Below, one piece after another: positions 38,006-44,454 of a DNA stretch of 64,000 bases. The stretch comes from Saprospiraceae bacterium (GTDB lineage Bacteria > Bacteroidota > Bacteroidia > Chitinophagales > Saprospiraceae): positions 1-64,000 of the forward strand of contig JAEUUU010000004.1 of the NCBI GenBank assembly GCA_016787345.1, written 5' to 3'. The notes under the pieces were generated by a model. The model did not search any database and had not been told where the DNA came from. It was given only the letters and a program-made list of their open reading frames with translations. How positions within the stretch are numbered: the first letter of the stretch is position 1; every line of letters starts with the position of its first letter. A program made the position numbers and the translations under genes.

Positions 38006-40564
38006 ATGCTCGGTAATCTGACCGAAAACGGCGCAAAACTCAAGCGCATTTTCATCGAACCCAAACTGCCCGCCGGCCTCGCCCCCCTGAACGAACTGGC
38101 CCACAACCTCTGGTGGTCGTGGCAGCACGACGCCATCGATCTGTTCAAAAGCATCGATGCGCAAAAATTTGAACACCTCAACTTTAACCCCGTTGCCCTG
38201 CTCGATGAACTGAGCGTGGAAAGGGCCCAGGCTTTGCTCGACGATGCCGGTTTTATGGCGCGCCTCGGCAAAGTATACGGCGACTTCAAGCAATATACAG
38301 AAAAGGCCCCGGCCCCGGCCGGCCCGCAAATCGCCTATTTCTGCATGGAATACGGTCTGCATCAAAGCCTCCGGCTTTATTCGGGCGGACTGGGTGTGCT
38401 GGCCGGCGATTACCTCAAGGAGGCCAGCGATTGCAACACCAACCTGGTATCTGTCGGCCTTTTGTACCGCTACGGGTATTTCCAGCAGGCTATTTCGCTG
38501 CGCGGCGAACAAATCCATCAGCTGGATGCCGCTAAATTCACCCAATTGCCCCTGCGCCCCGTGCGCGATCAGCGGGGCGAATGGGTAAAAATCCACGTCA
38601 ATCTGGCCGGACGCACCGTCTGGATCAAAGTCTGGTTGCTCTCGGTGGGCCGAATCCATCTTTACCTGCTCGATACCGATATCGACGATAACCGCTGGGA
38701 AGACCGCTCCATCACACACCAACTGTACGGCGGCGACAACGAAAACCGCCTGCGCCAGGAACTTGTGCTGGGCATCGGCGGCCTGCGAGCGCTCAAAGCG
38801 CTGGGGCTTAACCCCGACCTGTACCACCTCAATGAAGGCCATGCGGCTTTTCTCGGACTGGAACGCCTTCAAAATTATGTAAAAGACAAAAAGTTGTCGT
38901 TTGAAGAGGCGCTTGAAGTCGTCCGCTCCACCCAACTTTTCACGACGCATACGCCTGTCCCGGCCGGCCACGACGCGTTTTCGGAAGCGTTGCTGCGCGA
39001 CTACATCTTTGAATATACCTATGGCCTCAACATCAGCTGGGAGCAGCTCATCGGTATCGGCCGCCTCGTAGCCGCCGACCCCAACGAACTGTTCTCGGTG
39101 AGCCACCTGGCCATCCGAACCTCGCAGGAAGTGAACGGTGTAAGCCGCCTGCACGGCGAAGTGAGCCAGAAAATGTTCAACGACCTTTACCCGGATTACA
39201 ACTACGCCGAAACCCACATCGGCTACGTCACCAACAGCGTACACTTCCCCACCTGGGTAGCCCGGGAATGGCTGGAACTGTATGAAAAATCGTTTGGCAA
39301 AGACTTCCTGTCAAACCAGACCGACCACAGCCGCTGGGAAAAAATCCACCAAGTGCCGTCCGACAAGATTATGGACTTGCGCCGGCTGCTGAAAAAACGC
39401 CTGCTCGACTGGGTGCGCAAAACCCTGCAGGAAGATTTTGCCCGACGGGGCGAAAACCCGAGCGCCACCTTCGAGATCGTCAACGGACTGAACGACGACG
39501 CCCTGGTCATCGGTTTCGCCCGGCGCTTTGCCACGTACAAACGCGCTACACTGCTGTTTTCCAACGAAAAACGCCTGGCTGAAATCGTCAACAACGCCGA
39601 CCGGCCAGTTATCTTCCTGTTTGCCGGCAAGGCGCACCCGGCCGACAAAGGCGGGCAGGAATTTATCCGACTGATCTACAACACCACCAAAAATCCACTT
39701 TTCAAAGGCAAGGTGATTTTCCTGGAAAACTATTCCATGGAAATGGCCAAACTGCTGGTGCAAGGCGTCGATATCTGGCTGAACAACCCGACCCGGCCCA
39801 AAGAAGCCTCCGGCACCTCGGGCATGAAAGCCGTGATGAACGGCGTGATGAACTTCTCGGTGCTCGACGGTTGGTGGGTGGAGGGCTACAAACCCGGCGC
39901 CGGCTGGGCACTGCCCGAACACGATACCTATTCCGATCCGGCGCTGCAAAACGAACTCGACGCCGAGACCATCTACAATATCCTGGAAAACGACATCGTA
40001 CCGACTTATTACGAGCGCGACGAGAAAGGCGTTTCGGAGCGCTGGGTAAGCCACGTCCGCAATACCATTGCCAAAATCGCACCCGAGTTTGTGATGAAAC
40101 GTATGCTCGACGACTATCAGGAGCGTTTTTACAGCAAACTCTGGGCCCGCAGCCAAAAACTAAAAAAGAACCACTACGAGCCGGTTCGCGAGCTGGTGGA
40201 GTGGAAAAATTACCTGCGCCAGGGCTGGGAAGCCATAGAACTCAAAGAACTCAAAGCACCCGATACCTACAACCATTCCATGCACCTGGGCGACAAATTC
40301 GAGGCGGAAGTAACGCTCGAATTGTACGGTCTGGCGCCCGAAGACATCGGCGTGGAAGTCGTGTTTTTCCGCCGTGTGACGGAAAAACAACTGGAACTGA
40401 TTTCCGTCCACGAAATGACGCTCGAGCACGGCAAATCAAAGCCGCGTTATGCCTGCCACATCGCTTTAGGCACGGCAGGCGTATTTGAATACGGCTTCCG
40501 CATCTTCCCCAAACATCCGCTGCTGGCCCACCGACAGGATTTTGGACTGGTGCGCTGGTTATAG
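38006..40564 (+). CDS. glgP: alpha-glucan (glycogen/starch) phosphorylase
   Basis: GT35 phosphorylase that releases glucose-1-phosphate from the ends of alpha-1,4-glucans using phosphate and PLP. The 852-residue protein is the short bacterial/archaeal-type (TIGR02094). Recognised regions: LAHNLWWSWQHDA at the start, YFCMEYGLHQSLRLYSGGLGVLAGDYLKEASD, LNEGHAAF, TTHTPVPAGHDAF, and the PLP segment EASGTSGMKAVMNGVMNF, with DGWWVEGY after it. The ATG at 38006 is used; a TTG three codons earlier is also open. Single gene, presumably its own transcript; the upstream gap is AT-rich. Confidence 0.94.
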   Translation: MLGNLTENGAKLKRIFIEPKLPAGLAPLNELAHNLWWSWQHDAIDLFKSIDAQKFEHLNFNPVALLDELSVERAQALLDDAGFMARLGKVYGDFKQYTEKAPAPAGPQIAYFCMEYGLHQSLRLYSGGLGVLAGDYLKEASDCNTNLVSVGLLYRYGYFQQAISLRGEQIHQLDAAKFTQLPLRPVRDQRGEWVKIHVNLAGRTVWIKVWLLSVGRIHLYLLDTDIDDNRWEDRSITHQLYGGDNENRLRQELVLGIGGLRALKALGLNPDLYHLNEGHAAFLGLERLQNYVKDKKLSFEEALEVVRSTQLFTTHTPVPAGHDAFSEALLRDYIFEYTYGLNISWEQLIGIGRLVAADPNELFSVSHLAIRTSQEVNGVSRLHGEVSQKMFNDLYPDYNYAETHIGYVTNSVHFPTWVAREWLELYEKSFGKDFLSNQTDHSRWEKIHQVPSDKIMDLRRLLKKRLLDWVRKTLQEDFARRGENPSATFEIVNGLNDDALVIGFARRFATYKRATLLFSNEKRLAEIVNNADRPVIFLFAGKAHPADKGGQEFIRLIYNTTKNPLFKGKVIFLENYSMEMAKLLVQGVDIWLNNPTRPKEASGTSGMKAVMNGVMNFSVLDGWWVEGYKPGAGWALPEHDTYSDPALQNELDAETIYNILENDIVPTYYERDEKGVSERWVSHVRNTIAKIAPEFVMKRMLDDYQERFYSKLWARSQKLKKNHYEPVRELVEWKNYLRQGWEAIELKELKAPDTYNHSMHLGDKFEAEVTLELYGLAPEDIGVEVVFFRRVTEKQLELISVHEMTLEHGKSKPRYACHIALGTAGVFEYGFRIFPKHPLLAHRQDFGLVRWL

Positions 40565-40595
40565 CCCTGGCGCATTATACATCGGTGAGTATTGC

Positions 40596-40641
40596 CACGC
40601 GGAGCACAAAAAGGAACAAGATTCCTTCGCGGCTCCGCGTG
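40596..40641. repeat. hairpin of ATTGcCACGCGGAGC type
   Basis: A ten-base perfect stem CACGCGGAGC/GCTCCGCGTG with ATTG and CAAT outside it and an AAGGAA/TTCCTT inner dyad. The flanking ATTGCACGC-type word resembles the inverted repeat at 15983, so it belongs to the same repeat class in the gap after glgP. Confidence 0.7.
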
Positions 40642-40706
40642 CAATAATAGAATGCCGCGCCGCGGCTCGCTCAACTTTGCGCGCTTCGCGGTTTTGTAGG
40701 CGCATC

Positions 40707-41357
40707 CTATTGGTCCAAAATCGCAAAAAACTCACTCAAAATCATGGCCGTCGCCCCCCAAAGCACGTGCCCTTCGACGTCGAAGTACGGTACTTCGCGG
40801 ATGGTTAGCCCCTGGGCGATGCTGATGTCGGTCATTTTCCGGTTGAGCGGGTCGTTCAATTGCCGGATCGGAGGGGTCAGAATATTTTCCACTTCACCCG
40901 GCTGGGGTTGAAATTCGGGCCGGCCCAGCAGGACCCCGACAAAGGGGTGTACCAAAAAATTACTCACCGGAATATACAAATCGGTGAGCCGGCCGATCAG
41001 TTCTACTTCCAGGGGCGACACGCCGATTTCTTCATGGGCTTCGCGCAAGGCAGCGGCAGCCAGGTCGTCGCCGTCGCTTTCTTCCCATCGGCCTCCGGGA
41101 AAACTAATCTGTCCGCTGTGCCGGTCGCGCGGGTTGGTCGTGCGTTGGATCAAAACCGTGCGCCAATCATCGTGCTCGTGCCGGCGATGCAGCAAATGCA
41201 GGACGCAAGCCACCCGCGCGTCCAGCGGAGGAATCGGGGTATCGTCAAGTTCCTGCAGGCGTCGCATACTGGCCATCCGGTATTGAGCGGCGCGCCCCGG
41301 TAAAGGACCGGCCAGTTTTTCCCGCAGTTGCAGAATAAATGGGTCAGTGTTTGTCAT
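40707..41357 (-). CDS. Nudix hydrolase, CoA pyrophosphatase-like
   Basis: A 216-residue cytoplasmic Nudix enzyme. The Nudix box reads GRWEESDGDDLAAAALREAHEEIGV, with the REAHEEIG catalytic Glu pair. Immediately before it, LIQRTTNPRDRHSGQISFPGG matches the NuCoA signature of NudL/YeaB proteins, which split CoA and derivatives to phosphopantetheine and 3',5'-ADP; this Nudix box has its usual insertion after the first Glu. The ATG at 41357 (MTNTDPFILQL) is preferred to the frame start at 41429. Convergent with glgP. Confidence 0.88.
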   Translation of the reverse strand: MTNTDPFILQLREKLAGPLPGRAAQYRMASMRRLQELDDTPIPPLDARVACVLHLLHRRHEHDDWRTVLIQRTTNPRDRHSGQISFPGGRWEESDGDDLAAAALREAHEEIGVSPLEVELIGRLTDLYIPVSNFLVHPFVGVLLGRPEFQPQPGEVENILTPPIRQLNDPLNRKMTDISIAQGLTIREVPYFDVEGHVLWGATAMILSEFFAILDQ

Positions 41358-41508
41358 CGTTGCTATGTAAACGTCGAAAACGGGTTTTGTTCGCCATTGC
41401 CAAAATGAAAATTTTTCCCCGGCTCGCAAACCTAATTTTTACGATTATCCAATGTTTTGCTTGTTTATTTAAACAATATGTAATAATTTTAATTTTTTAA
41501 TAAAAAAT

Positions 41509-41541
41509 TTGCAATAAATAAGCGCATACCTTTACCTTTGT
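41509..41541 (+). promoter_or_regulatory. canonical Bacteroidota promoter for the tRNA-like RNA
   Basis: TTTG at 41509-41512, a 21-base spacer, and TACCTTTG at 41534-41541 match the -33 TTTG and -7 TAnnTTTG consensus. The surrounding DNA is very AT-rich. Transcription should begin near 41548 and run through the RNA at 41629. Confidence 0.8.
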
Positions 41542-41628
41542 CACATCACAAAGCGCGAGAGCGGGTGAAAAAAGGAAAAAAGTTTCCTGCTCAGGACTCC
41601 GCTTCGCTCCGCCGCTTTGGATCTATAC

Positions 41629-41744
41629 TGTGAGGTGATGAAATTGGCAGCCATGCCCTCCTGTCTCGGGGGTGGGGAGCACAAAACAAAGACCGGGTAA
41701 CCGGCCCTAATTGCCCCTTGGAGGTTCGACTCCTCCCTTCACAG
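41629..41744 (+). ncRNA. class II tRNA-like RNA with GUC anticodon position and very long variable arm
   Basis: The region folds by hand into a cloverleaf. Acceptor: TGTGAGG (41629-41635) with CTTCACA (41737-41743), including one G-T pair, discriminator G at 41744. D arm: ATG/CAT around AAATTGGCAGC, resembling tRNA-Leu. Anticodon arm: CCCTC/GGGGG around CTGTCTC, placing GTC at 34-36 with U33 before it. T arm: GGAGG TTCGACT CCTCC (41720-41736), fully canonical. The variable region is 47 nt, held by GGGG/CCCC with an inner CCGG-GTAA-CCGG hairpin; class II tRNAs normally have about 11-24 nt there. No 3' CCA is encoded (CCT). Position 37 is U, which is abnormal. It may be a non-translating or degraded tRNA, not a normal one. 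Confidence 0.7.
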
Positions 41745-41755
41745 CCTGAAACTTC

Positions 41756-41800
41756 CCGGGGTTGTCGCGCCTTTAGCGTGGCAGCCCCGGCTTCATTTTT
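41756..41800 (+). terminator. terminator of the tRNA-like RNA
   Basis: A 14-bp stem allowing G-T pairs (41756-41769 with 41777-41790), loop CCTTTAG, then CTTCATTTTT. It lies 12 bases after the tRNA-like fold and before thrA. Confidence 0.8.
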
Positions 41801-41895
41801 GGCATTTTCGATCAAAAAAGCAGGCCAATAAGGTTCCGGGTTGTTTAGCGACAGCAGACCTTTGCACTCCATTTTTTCACCAGAAGCCATCATTC

Positions 41896-44454
41896 ATGAA
41901 GGTTCTCAAATTCGGCGGCACCTCGGTCGGAACACCCGACACGATTAAAAGCCTGATCGACATCCTGAAAACATACTACCGCCGCGGCGACAAATTTGCG
42001 GTGGTATTTTCCGCATTTTCAAAAGTCACCGACACCCTGATCGAGATGGCGCGCCGCGCTGCACAAGGCGATCAAACCTATATTGACCTGCTCGATCAGG
42101 TGCGCACCCGTCATTTTGAGACCGCAAAAAACCTGCTCCGGCCAGAGTTGTACGAAGCAGTCGCTGCACCCATGGCCGAAAAATTTACCGACCTGGCCAA
42201 TGTGCTGCAAGGTATTTTTCTGCTGCGCGAGGTATCGCCCCGCTCCCTCGATTTTGTCGTGAGTTTCGGCGAGCGCAATTCGGCTTTCATCATCGCCCAT
42301 GCCATGCAACAGGCGGGTATCCCCACGCAATACCTCGATGCGCGGAAGCTCGTCCGGACGGATGCGCAGTTCGGCAACGCCAAGGTCGATGCCGAGGAAA
42401 CCAACCGGCTCATCACCGAATATTTTGCCCATCACCCTCAGGTACAGGCCGTTACGGGTTTTATCGGCAGCACAGCCGATGGCCTCACTACGACGCTGGG
42501 GCGCGGCGGCTCCGACTATACCGCGGCCCTGCTGGGCGCCGCACTGGATGCCGAAGTGATCGAAATCTGGACCGACGTGGATGGTGTGCTGACCGCCGAT
42601 CCGCGCAGGGTCAAAAAAGCATTTACGTTGCCGACCATGACTTACCGTGAAGCCATGGAAATGAGTCATTTCGGCGCCAAGGTTATTTACCCGCCCACTA
42701 TACAGCCGGCTTTGGCCAAAAACATCCCGTTGGCCATAAAAAATACGTTCAAACCCGATTTTCCCGGCACCTGGATCAGTCGGAAAAGCGACGATGCCGG
42801 GCATCCGGTAAAGGGCATTTCCAGCATCAACCAGATTTGCCTGCTCACGGTACAGGGTAGCGGCCTGTTTGGGGTGCCGGGTATTGCCGCCAGGTTGTTC
42901 GGCGCACTGGCGCAGGCGGGGGTCAATATTGTGCTGATTACACAGGGATCAAGCGAGACGAGCATCACGTTCGCCGTGTCGCCCAACCAGGCCAGCCTGG
43001 CTAAAATGGCTGTGGAAAAAGAATTTTCCTACGAATTGCGCACCGGCCTGGTGGATACGCTTAAAATTGAAGGCGACCTGGCGGTAGTGGCGGTTGTAGG
43101 TGAAAACATGCGTTATCGCCCCGGCATTGCAGGCCGCTTGTTTCAGGCGCTCGGCAAAAACGGGATCAATATCGTGGCCATCGCACAGGGTTCGAGCGAG
43201 TTGAATATTTCGATCGTCGTGGCGGCTGCCGACGAGACCAAAGCCCTCAATGCCATCCACGAGGCATTTTTCCTTTCTGATACCAAAACTCTCCATCTTT
43301 TTATCGTCGGCGTGGGCCTGATCGGCGGTACGCTGCTCGAACAAATCCGTGCGCAGGCAGCGTACCTGCTTGAGAACCGCAAACTGGAAATCAAGATCGT
43401 AGGACTGGCCAATAGCCGGAAAATGCTGTTTGCAGAAGAAGGGATTGCACTGGAACAATGGCAAGTGCAGCTCGCCGCATCGGAGCAGCCTTTCTCTATC
43501 GCACGGTTTGCTGAAACCATGCAAACCCTCAATTTGCCCAATACAATCTTTGTAGATAATACCGCCTCCGCCGAAGTAGCCGGTTTTTACGAACAAATAC
43601 TGGGCGCCAGCATTTCTATCAGCACGCCCAACAAACAAGCCGCCTCATCACCCTATCTGCAGTACGAGCGGCTCAAACAACTGGCTGCCCAGCGCGGCGT
43701 GCTTTGGCGTTACGAAACCAATGTCGGCGCAGGGCTGCCGATCATCACCACTTTGAACGACCTGATTCACTCGGGCGACCGTATCCTGAAAATAGAAGGG
43801 GTGCTTTCGGGGACTTTGTCTTACATATTCAACGCGTTTGGCCTCGCCCCCAGCCCTTCTCCAAAGGAGAGGGGAGCGGATAGTCCAGCAGGAGCCACTC
43901 CCCTCTCCTTTGGAGAAGGGTTGGGGGTGAGGCCCGAGGGGTCAGGCGCGAGACGCTTCTCCGACATCGTTCGCGAAGCACAATCGAGGGGCCTGACCGA
44001 GCCTGACCCGCGCGACGACCTCAGCGGGGCCGACGTTCGTCGGAAATTGCTCATTTTGGCACGGGAGACTGGTCTGGCGCTCGAATCAACCGATATTGAA
44101 CTTGAACAAATCCTGCCGGCCGACTGCATGACGGCGCCGGACGTCGCGGCTTTTTTCGACACCTTGCAGCGGCACGACGGACACTTTGAACAAATGCGAA
44201 TGAACGCAGCGGCAGAGGGCAAGGTGCTGCGTTTTGTAGCCTGCCTGTCGGAGGGCCGGGCGCAGATCGGCTTGCAGGCCGTCGATCAGCGCCACCCGTT
44301 CTATTTCCTCGACGGCTCCGACAACATGGTGGTTTTTACGACCGAACGCTACCGCGAAAGGCCGCTGGTGATCCGCGGTCCCGGCGCCGGCGCCGAGGTG
44401 ACGGCTGCCGGCGTGTTTGCCGAAGTAATCGGCATAGGAAGTTACCTGGGCTGA
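41896..44454 (+). CDS. thrA: bifunctional aspartate kinase / homoserine dehydrogenase
   Basis: First and third steps of threonine/methionine synthesis in one protein (852 residues): N-terminal aspartokinase (VLKFGGTSVG; TTLGRGGSDYTAALLG; IWTDVDGVLTADPR), paired ACT domains (about 310-470), then homoserine dehydrogenase (FIVGVGLIGGTLL; STPNKQA; RYETNVGAGLPII; SYIFNAF; GLTEPDPRDDLSG). ACT domains usually give threonine feedback. The protein is about 30 residues longer than E. coli ThrA because of a 93-bp palindromic insertion within residues 649-680 (see separate entry). Two transcription units are suggested: the upstream tRNA-like RNA ends in a terminator at 41800. The stop codon touches the stop of the convergent carbonic anhydrase gene. 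Confidence 0.95.
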   Translation: MKVLKFGGTSVGTPDTIKSLIDILKTYYRRGDKFAVVFSAFSKVTDTLIEMARRAAQGDQTYIDLLDQVRTRHFETAKNLLRPELYEAVAAPMAEKFTDLANVLQGIFLLREVSPRSLDFVVSFGERNSAFIIAHAMQQAGIPTQYLDARKLVRTDAQFGNAKVDAEETNRLITEYFAHHPQVQAVTGFIGSTADGLTTTLGRGGSDYTAALLGAALDAEVIEIWTDVDGVLTADPRRVKKAFTLPTMTYREAMEMSHFGAKVIYPPTIQPALAKNIPLAIKNTFKPDFPGTWISRKSDDAGHPVKGISSINQICLLTVQGSGLFGVPGIAARLFGALAQAGVNIVLITQGSSETSITFAVSPNQASLAKMAVEKEFSYELRTGLVDTLKIEGDLAVVAVVGENMRYRPGIAGRLFQALGKNGINIVAIAQGSSELNISIVVAAADETKALNAIHEAFFLSDTKTLHLFIVGVGLIGGTLLEQIRAQAAYLLENRKLEIKIVGLANSRKMLFAEEGIALEQWQVQLAASEQPFSIARFAETMQTLNLPNTIFVDNTASAEVAGFYEQILGASISISTPNKQAASSPYLQYERLKQLAAQRGVLWRYETNVGAGLPIITTLNDLIHSGDRILKIEGVLSGTLSYIFNAFGLAPSPSPKERGADSPAGATPLSFGEGLGVRPEGSGARRFSDIVREAQSRGLTEPDPRDDLSGADVRRKLLILARETGLALESTDIELEQILPADCMTAPDVAAFFDTLQRHDGHFEQMRMNAAAEGKVLRFVACLSEGRAQIGLQAVDQRHPFYFLDGSDNMVVFTTERYRERPLVIRGPGAGAEVTAAGVFAEVIGIGSYLG
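43841..43933. repeat. in-frame palindromic element inside thrA
   Basis: Two 36-base arms, 43841-43876 and 43898-43933, match as inverted repeats at 34 of 36 positions around a 21-base loop; each arm also holds its own small dyad (TCTCCAAAGGAGA). The total of 93 bases is 31 codons, so the reading frame survives. It encodes SPSPKERG on one arm and PLSFGEGLGV on the other. Its half-palindrome recurs at 25162-25195. Confidence 0.93.

Follow-up and report, generated by a model that had tools for sequence, protein, structure and literature searches.

An uncatalogued tRNA-like RNA family of Bacteroidota and phages with an aspartate-type anticodon loop and a long structured variable arm

The tRNA-like RNA and its locus

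The analysed stretch of DNA, hereafter the window, comprises 64,000 nucleotides of contig JAEUUU010000004.1 (GenBank assembly GCA_016787345.1) from a Saprospiraceae bacterium and carries on its forward strand a tRNA-like RNA, which belongs to an uncatalogued RNA family of Bacteroidota and phages. Its predicted mature body of 116 nt (41629..41744) was delimited by a covariance model, termed R1, and by conservation over the same stretch in relatives. The acceptor stem (41629..41635/41737-41743, UGUGAGG/CUUCACA, beginning with U1 G2 U3) is followed by the discriminator G73 (41744); the CCA end is not encoded. The D arm (41638..41654) consists of a three-pair stem (41638-41640/41652-41654) and a loop with G18G19, while the anticodon arm CCCUC-CUGUCUC-GGGGG (41656..41672) displays the loop C32 U33 G34 U35 C36 U37 C38 (41661-41667). 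The T arm GGAGG-TTCGACT-CCTCC (41720..41736) is perfectly paired. The variable region of 47 nt (41673..41719) is built up by the V stem (41674-41677/41714-41717), a covarying 3-bp helix (41682-41684/41711-41713), an internal loop AACAAA/CUAA (41685-41690/41707-41710) and, at the tip of the arm, an apical hairpin CCGG-GUAA-CCGG (41693-41704). These elements were defined by alignment and pair counts, the helix placement in the window copy being read off the aligned L001 copy, which is nearly identical. An earlier note, made from the letters of the window, had already described the pairing of all arms, the perfect T arm with TTCGACT, the 47-nt variable region, GUC, U37, G73 and the lack of CCA, all of which are confirmed in the sequence.

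Upstream of the RNA, on the same strand, a promoter of the form TTG (41509-41511)-N21-TACCTTTG (41533-41540) spans positions 41509..41540, which we take to match the Bacteroidota-type promoter consensus. Downstream, the terminator scan yielded an intrinsic terminator (41756..41800, plus strand) with a hairpin at 41756-41790. The neighbouring genes encode a divergently oriented NUDIX hydrolase (40707..41429, minus strand; Pfam PF00293) and, downstream on the plus strand, a thrA-type aspartokinase-homoserine dehydrogenase (41896..44454; PF00696, PF00742 and ACT domains).

The possibility, raised in the earlier note, that a standard tRNA model accepts this RNA is not borne out, as both ARAGORN and Rfam ignore the window copy. 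ARAGORN reported no tRNA or tmRNA gene in the 64-kb window, and Rfam 15 at gathering scores returned no match for the window copy, RF00005 included; at E<=10, only three unrelated families appeared around the element. Homologues in five loci were likewise missed by Rfam, and the same search found seven ordinary tRNAs in locus L166. At 134 host loci, ARAGORN made no call within 500 nt. A search of the open-access literature, judged by titles and abstract openings and with most subscription papers and preprints outside its coverage, found no description of this RNA, and the words tRNA-like and cloverleaf are absent from a paper on 104 motifs (PMC2864571).

Fold and distribution of the family

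The cloverleaf and the structured arm are backed by covariation and the elbow contacts by conservation. In an alignment of 42 sequences, 97.3% of the cells are paired compared to 80.2% after shuffling, double-sided changes occur at 22 of the 34 pairs, and the covariation value amounts to 0.523 versus 0.184 in shuffled alignments (0/500). RNAalifold, run on this alignment, recovered 20 of the 34 pairs and misplaced the D arm. The same 42 sequences, selected by the loop pattern described below, served to build R1. Sixty-six distinct copies found by R1 gave closely similar values (97.2% paired, double changes at 23/34 pairs, covariation 0.500 versus 0.190) in an alignment that was fitted to R1; they were drawn from the best 52 loci of two genome searches and were not themselves pattern-selected, although the R1 seeds were. 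In the two alignments, 99.7-100% of the acceptor stem cells are paired, with double changes at 5/7 and 4/7 pairs; in the D stem, two of the three pairs show such changes (42 sequences). The anticodon stem varies pairwise (CCGUC/GACGG, CCCGC/GCGGG), with a mismatch in seven copies (CCUCC/GGUGG). The tertiary contacts of the elbow are kept almost without exception (U8-A14 in 42, A15-U48 in 41, G18-U55, G19-C56 and U54-A58 in 42 of the 42 sequences). The acceptor branch is of the 7/5 type, unlike the 8/4 or 9/3 type. In the common layout of the variable arm, a stem of four pairs is followed by a helix of three pairs that covary, then by an asymmetric internal loop and, farther out, by another covarying helix. 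Both motifs of the internal loop, RAYAAA and CYAA, are present in 173/221 distinct copies, and many long copies carry an apical GGGUUGACCAC-type element. The folding energy of the single window sequence is not unusual (z -0.51; 65/200 shuffles equally stable), and its single-sequence fold puts the D arm in the wrong place; the cloverleaf of the window copy thus rests on covariation, the folding energy being no evidence. A chance cloverleaf was ruled out by conservation and covariation.

The sequence is conserved well beyond the window, as the earlier note had proposed to check. BLAST with positions 41600-41800 gave matches in 22/60 genomes, its own included, and, except for the own and one identical copy, the alignments extend no more than a few bases beyond the predicted RNA; often they are split in two, flanking the variable arm. 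Searching for the anticodon-arm pattern detected at least 119 stretches in a genome collection, 118 of the matches listed stemming from Bacteroidota as judged by their record names, and 116 stretches in viral contigs. With one core mismatch tolerated and at least 10/12 pairs demanded in the acceptor and T stems, 252 of 301 loop matches revealed a full cloverleaf, 78 of them in viral and 174 in genome loci; in the 49 dropped matches this test detected no full cloverleaf, some of them being cut by the contig end. The 252 kept copies correspond to 221 distinct sequences with variable regions of 39-124 nt. All counts over these 221 copies depend on the loop pattern used for selection. The 5' end may be misplaced in a few copies, four viral loci having 5/7 acceptor pairs. 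Among 134 host loci (fetched stretches), 98 contain one copy, 32 two and four three copies, whose arms often differ; genome G451 has five tandem copies.

Under R1, the window copy scores 116.9 bits (E 1.3e-27), the near-identical L001 copy having been among the seeds, and represents the sole match in the 64-kb window. Clear members are separated by a gap from all other matches: they reach at least 84 bits, and the next matches, of 76-87 nt, stay below 66 bits. The latter look like ordinary tRNAs, and those of the window's own genome are tRNA-Leu and tRNA-Ser. Across the phylum, 280/296 genomes gave a match at any score, mostly weak ordinary tRNAs, with matches listed down to about 54 bits; clear members (>84 bits), counted by hand, occur in 31/296 genomes. 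They concentrate in certain families, namely in 6/6 genomes of the window's own family (f1), 8/10 of f20, 7/7 of f27, 5/7 of f22, 2/2 of f29, 1/2 of f28 and 2/2 of f66, the last of which lies outside the class. Other families sampled in the phylum, such as the large f24, have no clear members. At the order level, R1 found a match at E<=1e-13 in 91/148 genomes. The second f28 genome contains a 76-nt armless relative (L350:1339-1414) with the loop CUAUCUC and G73, which is the exception in being called by ARAGORN, as tRNA-Asp (ATC). Armless relatives like L350 may hide in automatic annotation as tRNA-Asp genes.

Transcription signals, gene neighbourhood and phage copies

The claim of the earlier note that the RNA has its own promoter and terminator is supported, both signals being present in the window and enriched at host loci relative to shuffles. 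The element TTG-N17-23-TANNTTTG is found upstream of 49/127 host loci against a shuffled mean of 1.7, and a terminator-like site, identified by a custom test, downstream of 104/131 host loci against 8.05 in shuffles. A simple sigma-70 scan of 40500-43000 yielded no site on the plus strand, as expected because the promoter is of another type. BoxA occurs in rRNA leaders; a boxA-like GTTCTT[TA] was noticed, as a weak signal, in the leader of 20/131 host loci versus 1.4 in shuffles and of 0/51 viral loci, and GTTCTTT lies shortly 5' of the RNA in, for example, L019, L021 and L045.

An AsnC/Lrp-type regulator gene is divergently oriented to the RNA at 70/113 named loci and at 4/21 loci of relatives, some loci being cut by their ends. 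At the model-found loci, an AsnC-like gene is divergent in 30/52 cases including both f66 genomes outside the class, which suggests that the pairing is an old arrangement. PF01037 was detected in 3/3 scanned proteins, and the best NCBIfam model was AsnC, under its cut-off. In the window, the NUDIX gene occupies the place of the AsnC-like regulator found in many other lineages. A word count in 74 intergenic regions adjoining AsnC genes returned words that are AT-rich or resemble promoters, and none that would clearly represent an operator. The downstream genes are shared within lineages and different between lineages. The adjacency of thrA, pointed out in the earlier note, is therefore probably incidental; a special link is not supported, as other genes lie downstream in 16 translated loci of other genomes, thrA synteny itself not having been searched. 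A cis-acting leader of thrA (T-box or attenuator) was also rejected in view of the RNA's own terminator, the terminator-like sites at 104/131 host loci and the other neighbours elsewhere.

Full copies are carried by 78 viral contigs, 46 of which also hold an ordinary tRNA, in 39 cases within 500 nt; the corresponding number at host loci is 0/134. Viral loci have up to 22 tRNA calls, and several include an ordinary tRNA-Asp. Among ten neighbouring phage proteins scanned, two proved to be terminases; they adjoin the copies of L186 and L207. The single phage copy queried against the GenBank phage collection gave no match. A boundary or integration relic was rejected, since the copies are complete and the phage ones often lie among tRNA genes. 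Two viral contigs were noted in passing: L218:1840 combines a tmRNA call, 19 tRNA calls and the tRNA-like RNA, and at L207:12808-12883, on a contig that also bears a tRNA-like copy, ARAGORN called a tRNA whose anticodon has four bases (agtc).

The variable arm of the phage copies has a further feature. In 40/51 viral copies, 6 nt or more of self-complementary sequence lie within 22 nt after a GACCAC element, and the letters vary between copies (GCGCGC, GCATGC, GTGCAC, GCTAGC, GCCGGCCGGC); in L158, L166, L226 and other viral loci, a palindrome of 6-12 nt keeps its place and changes its letters. Such palindromes resemble the sites of kissing-loop dimers, the HIV-1 DIS being an example. Across the variable region as a whole, palindromes of at least 6 nt were counted in 44 of 54 viral copies versus 37.0 in shuffles (shuffle maximum 45) and those of at least 8 nt in 24 versus 14.0; in 165 host copies, the numbers are 99 versus 110.8, which is no excess, and 58 versus 40.6. 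The phage palindromes suggest that loop-loop dimers might form, an idea derived mainly from the kept place and the changing letters, the whole-arm excess being mild and the counts ignoring the kinship of the copies.

Anticodon loop, charging and possible function

The anticodon loop of the family has the form [C/U]N-GUC-Y-C. In the 66 model-found copies, position 33 is U in 51, C in eight, A in six and G in one; position 34 is G in 65 and C in one; U35, C36, C38 and G73 are invariant; and position 37 is U in 62 and C in four. The window copy carries U at both 33 and 37. As control, we used 334 ordinary tRNAs, distinct over their first 50 nt, from viral loci and the window's genome, of which 329 have U33 and 329 a purine at position 37; they were found by ARAGORN, which may itself favour U33. 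The earlier note was right in calling U37 abnormal, a purine 37 being present in none of the 66 family copies, and the combination of U33 and purine 37 of an ordinary elongator is absent from them. All 11 ordinary tRNA-Asp share the loop [CU]UGUCAC, so that the main family loop equals the tRNA-Asp loop with A37 changed to a pyrimidine. This change should spoil decoding, and, judged from the sequences, the RNA probably has a role outside ordinary protein synthesis, in line with the non-ribosomal or regulatory role that the earlier note put among the more plausible ones.

The features relevant for charging are divided between two tRNA types. Between V stem and T stem, 196/221 distinct copies fit a spacer of two nucleotides and 13 a spacer of one; inspected by eye, the three tRNA-Leu of the own genome have a two-nucleotide and its four tRNA-Ser a one-nucleotide spacer. 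Scoring the ordinary tRNAs of this genome with R1 (27/30 loci scored; L333, L345 and L346 overlap L331) placed tRNA-Leu on top (46.1, 41.3 and 39.7 bits), the best tRNA-Ser reaching 35.8 bits. Leucyl-tRNA synthetase wants A73, which the own tRNA-Leu have; the family carries G73 in 220/221 distinct copies and in all model-found ones. The strong determinants of bacterial aspartyl-tRNA synthetase (AspRS) are G73, G34, U35, C36 and C38, and G1-C72 and G2-C71 also contribute, according to the available text of PMC9976931. All five strong determinants are found in 65/66 model-found copies and in the window copy, and G2-C71 is kept. From spacer, R1 scores and determinants, the body is Leu-like, and the end and the loop are Asp-like. 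The resemblance of the D arm to that of tRNA-Leu, stated in the earlier note, is upheld; the resemblance to tRNA-Ser is upheld for G73 and the class II shape and fails for the arm base, whose spacer is Leu-type, not Ser-type.

A dedicated AspRS paralogue was rejected, as all 56 genomes, whether they possess the RNA or not, contain exactly one AspRS match each over the family cut-off and the remaining matches are partial and below it. Consequently, the ordinary AspRS would have to charge the RNA. The AspRS gene (G000:C190:74910-76658) shares a contig with the RNA, at a distance of about 33 kb and outside the window, which is probably a coincidence.

We tentatively consider the element a tRNA-like RNA that is charged by AspRS, does not decode, has a promoter and a terminator of its own and frequently stands divergent to an AsnC-type regulator, and give this reading slightly less than an even chance. 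Aspartate charging is deduced from the retention of the five strong AspRS determinants, as opposed to U33 and purine 37, features on which ribosomal decoding depends and which are relaxed or excluded. The RNA would be trimmed and provided with CCA like a tRNA and then charged with aspartate by the ordinary AspRS, and the resulting Asp-RNA would stay outside normal elongation. It might act as an aspartate donor or, by its charge state, as a signal of aspartate/asparagine supply. The variable-arm domain may serve as docking site for a putative partner, the divergent AsnC-type regulator might tie transcription of the RNA to amino-acid supply, and the phage copy, often accompanied by a tRNA set, would presumably keep the function of the RNA supplied during infection. 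The more elaborate version, a widespread aminoacyl-RNA cofactor of Bacteroidota that is Asp-charged, excluded from the ribosome by the pyrimidine at position 37, equipped with an arm for docking or, in phages by means of the palindrome, dimerisation, used for non-ribosomal aspartate transfer or for Asp/Asn sensing with the AsnC-type regulator, and carried by phages, is a speculative and rather doubtful proposal.

Several points weigh against aspartate charging and its link to the regulator. G1-C72 is absent, U1 and A72 being found in 218/221 distinct copies each, and G10, a feature of tRNA-Asp, is replaced by A or U in most of the 42 aligned sequences, the corresponding pair being A-U in 35, U-A in five, G-C in one and another in one. 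Class II synthetases approach a tRNA from the side of its variable loop, so that a large arm might clash. L290 has C34 and the armless L350 of the same family A34, and R1, being seeded with pattern-selected copies, is biased towards GUC loops. A conserved partner enzyme did not turn up, the downstream genes varying by lineage, and an AsnC gene is located beside the copies in 0/12 loci of the window's family f1, 0/5 of f18 and 0/78 viral loci.

The strongest rival, which we regard as unlikely but worth serious attention, is an uncharged regulatory RNA that uses the tRNA fold for stability and processing and binds mRNA or protein by the GUCYC loop or the arm. The non-decoding loop, the structured arm of variable length with its conserved internal loop (173/221) and the precedent of the Bacillus cereus pseudo-tRNA speak for it, but a complete acceptor end with G73, together with C38 (both 66/66), is superfluous for a base-pairing loop, and L350 loses the arm yet keeps the acceptor end, G73 and the loop UCUC. 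We therefore prefer the charged RNA, because the acceptor end is conserved and one lineage lost the arm but not G73 and UCUC. A genuine, unusual Asp decoder for special contexts such as frameshifting, stress or phage infection would explain the GUC anticodon and the presence in phage tRNA arrays (39/78 within 500 nt of a tRNA). We consider it improbable given the pyrimidine 37 in 66/66 and the non-U33 in 15/66 copies, compared to 5/334 each in ordinary tRNAs, and given that an ordinary tRNA-Asp coexists in the window's genome and in eight viral loci with a full copy.

Equally improbable is a serylated missense tRNA of the allo-tRNA kind, which seryl-tRNA synthetase (SerRS) would charge via the long arm and G73 and which would insert serine at Asp codons. 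SerRS indeed recognises these two features, and GUC is common among the anticodons of 8/4 allo-tRNAs (available text of PMC7609411), so that the class II shape and G73 would suit such a tRNA. However, the arm-base spacer is not that of tRNA-Ser, the branch is 7/5 instead of the 8/4 or 9/3 of allo-tRNAs, U33 and purine 37 are not kept, and the anticodon is nearly fixed even though SerRS ignores it. Charging by SerRS, considered in the earlier note, is hence a poor fit and provides no reason for the near-invariant GUC/C38 loop. The least probable of these explanations, and a very unlikely one, is that the RNA acts in phage-host conflict as a decoy or sentinel, for instance against nucleases cutting Asp-type anticodon loops: the occurrence in hosts and phages and the tandem copies with often different arms (five copies in G451) might be expected of a decoy, but the ancient, orderly distribution and the recurrent AsnC-type neighbour are not in its favour.

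A tRNA-shaped RNA that stands alone, is conserved and occurs in numerous Bacteroidota as well as in the tRNA arrays of phages would constitute a new non-coding RNA family. If it is Asp-charged yet barred from decoding, it indicates that a major bacterial phylum employs aspartyl-RNA in a new way, and it allows one to test directly whether phage-borne tRNA-like genes serve aims beyond codon supply.

Compared with established systems, the family combines familiar traits in a different manner. Allo-tRNAs and selC-like tRNA-Cys share with it the class II shape and unexpected anticodons, and allo-tRNAs also G73, there a SerRS identity element. Allo-tRNAs, known from Clostridia, Proteobacteria and Acidobacteria, differ from the family by the 8/4 or 9/3 branch, changeable anticodons and mostly serine charging, as far as the available text of PMC7609411 describes them. 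Bacterial tRNA-Asp has in common with the family the loop [CU]UGUC-x-C, G73 and G2-C71, but is distinguished by A37, G1-C72, a short variable loop and another D arm. tRNA-Leu shares the D-arm type and, where the variable arm is rooted, the spacer of two nucleotides, and deviates in A73, its length of about 83 nt and the leucine anticodons. Charged tRNA-like RNAs working outside normal decoding are exemplified by tmRNA and the staphylococcal non-proteinogenic tRNA-Gly; in contrast to the family, tmRNA has no anticodon arm and codes for a tag, and the tRNA-Gly is of normal length and serves cell-wall synthesis. The Bacillus cereus tRNA-Other, a pseudo-tRNA with a Trp anticodon, is likewise tRNA-like, possesses an anticodon and does not work in translation; unlike for the family, a giant variable arm is not mentioned in the available text on it. 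Non-decoding tRNA-like RNAs are a known kind, and the family described here is a separate one, far more widespread and endowed with an unusual variable-arm domain.
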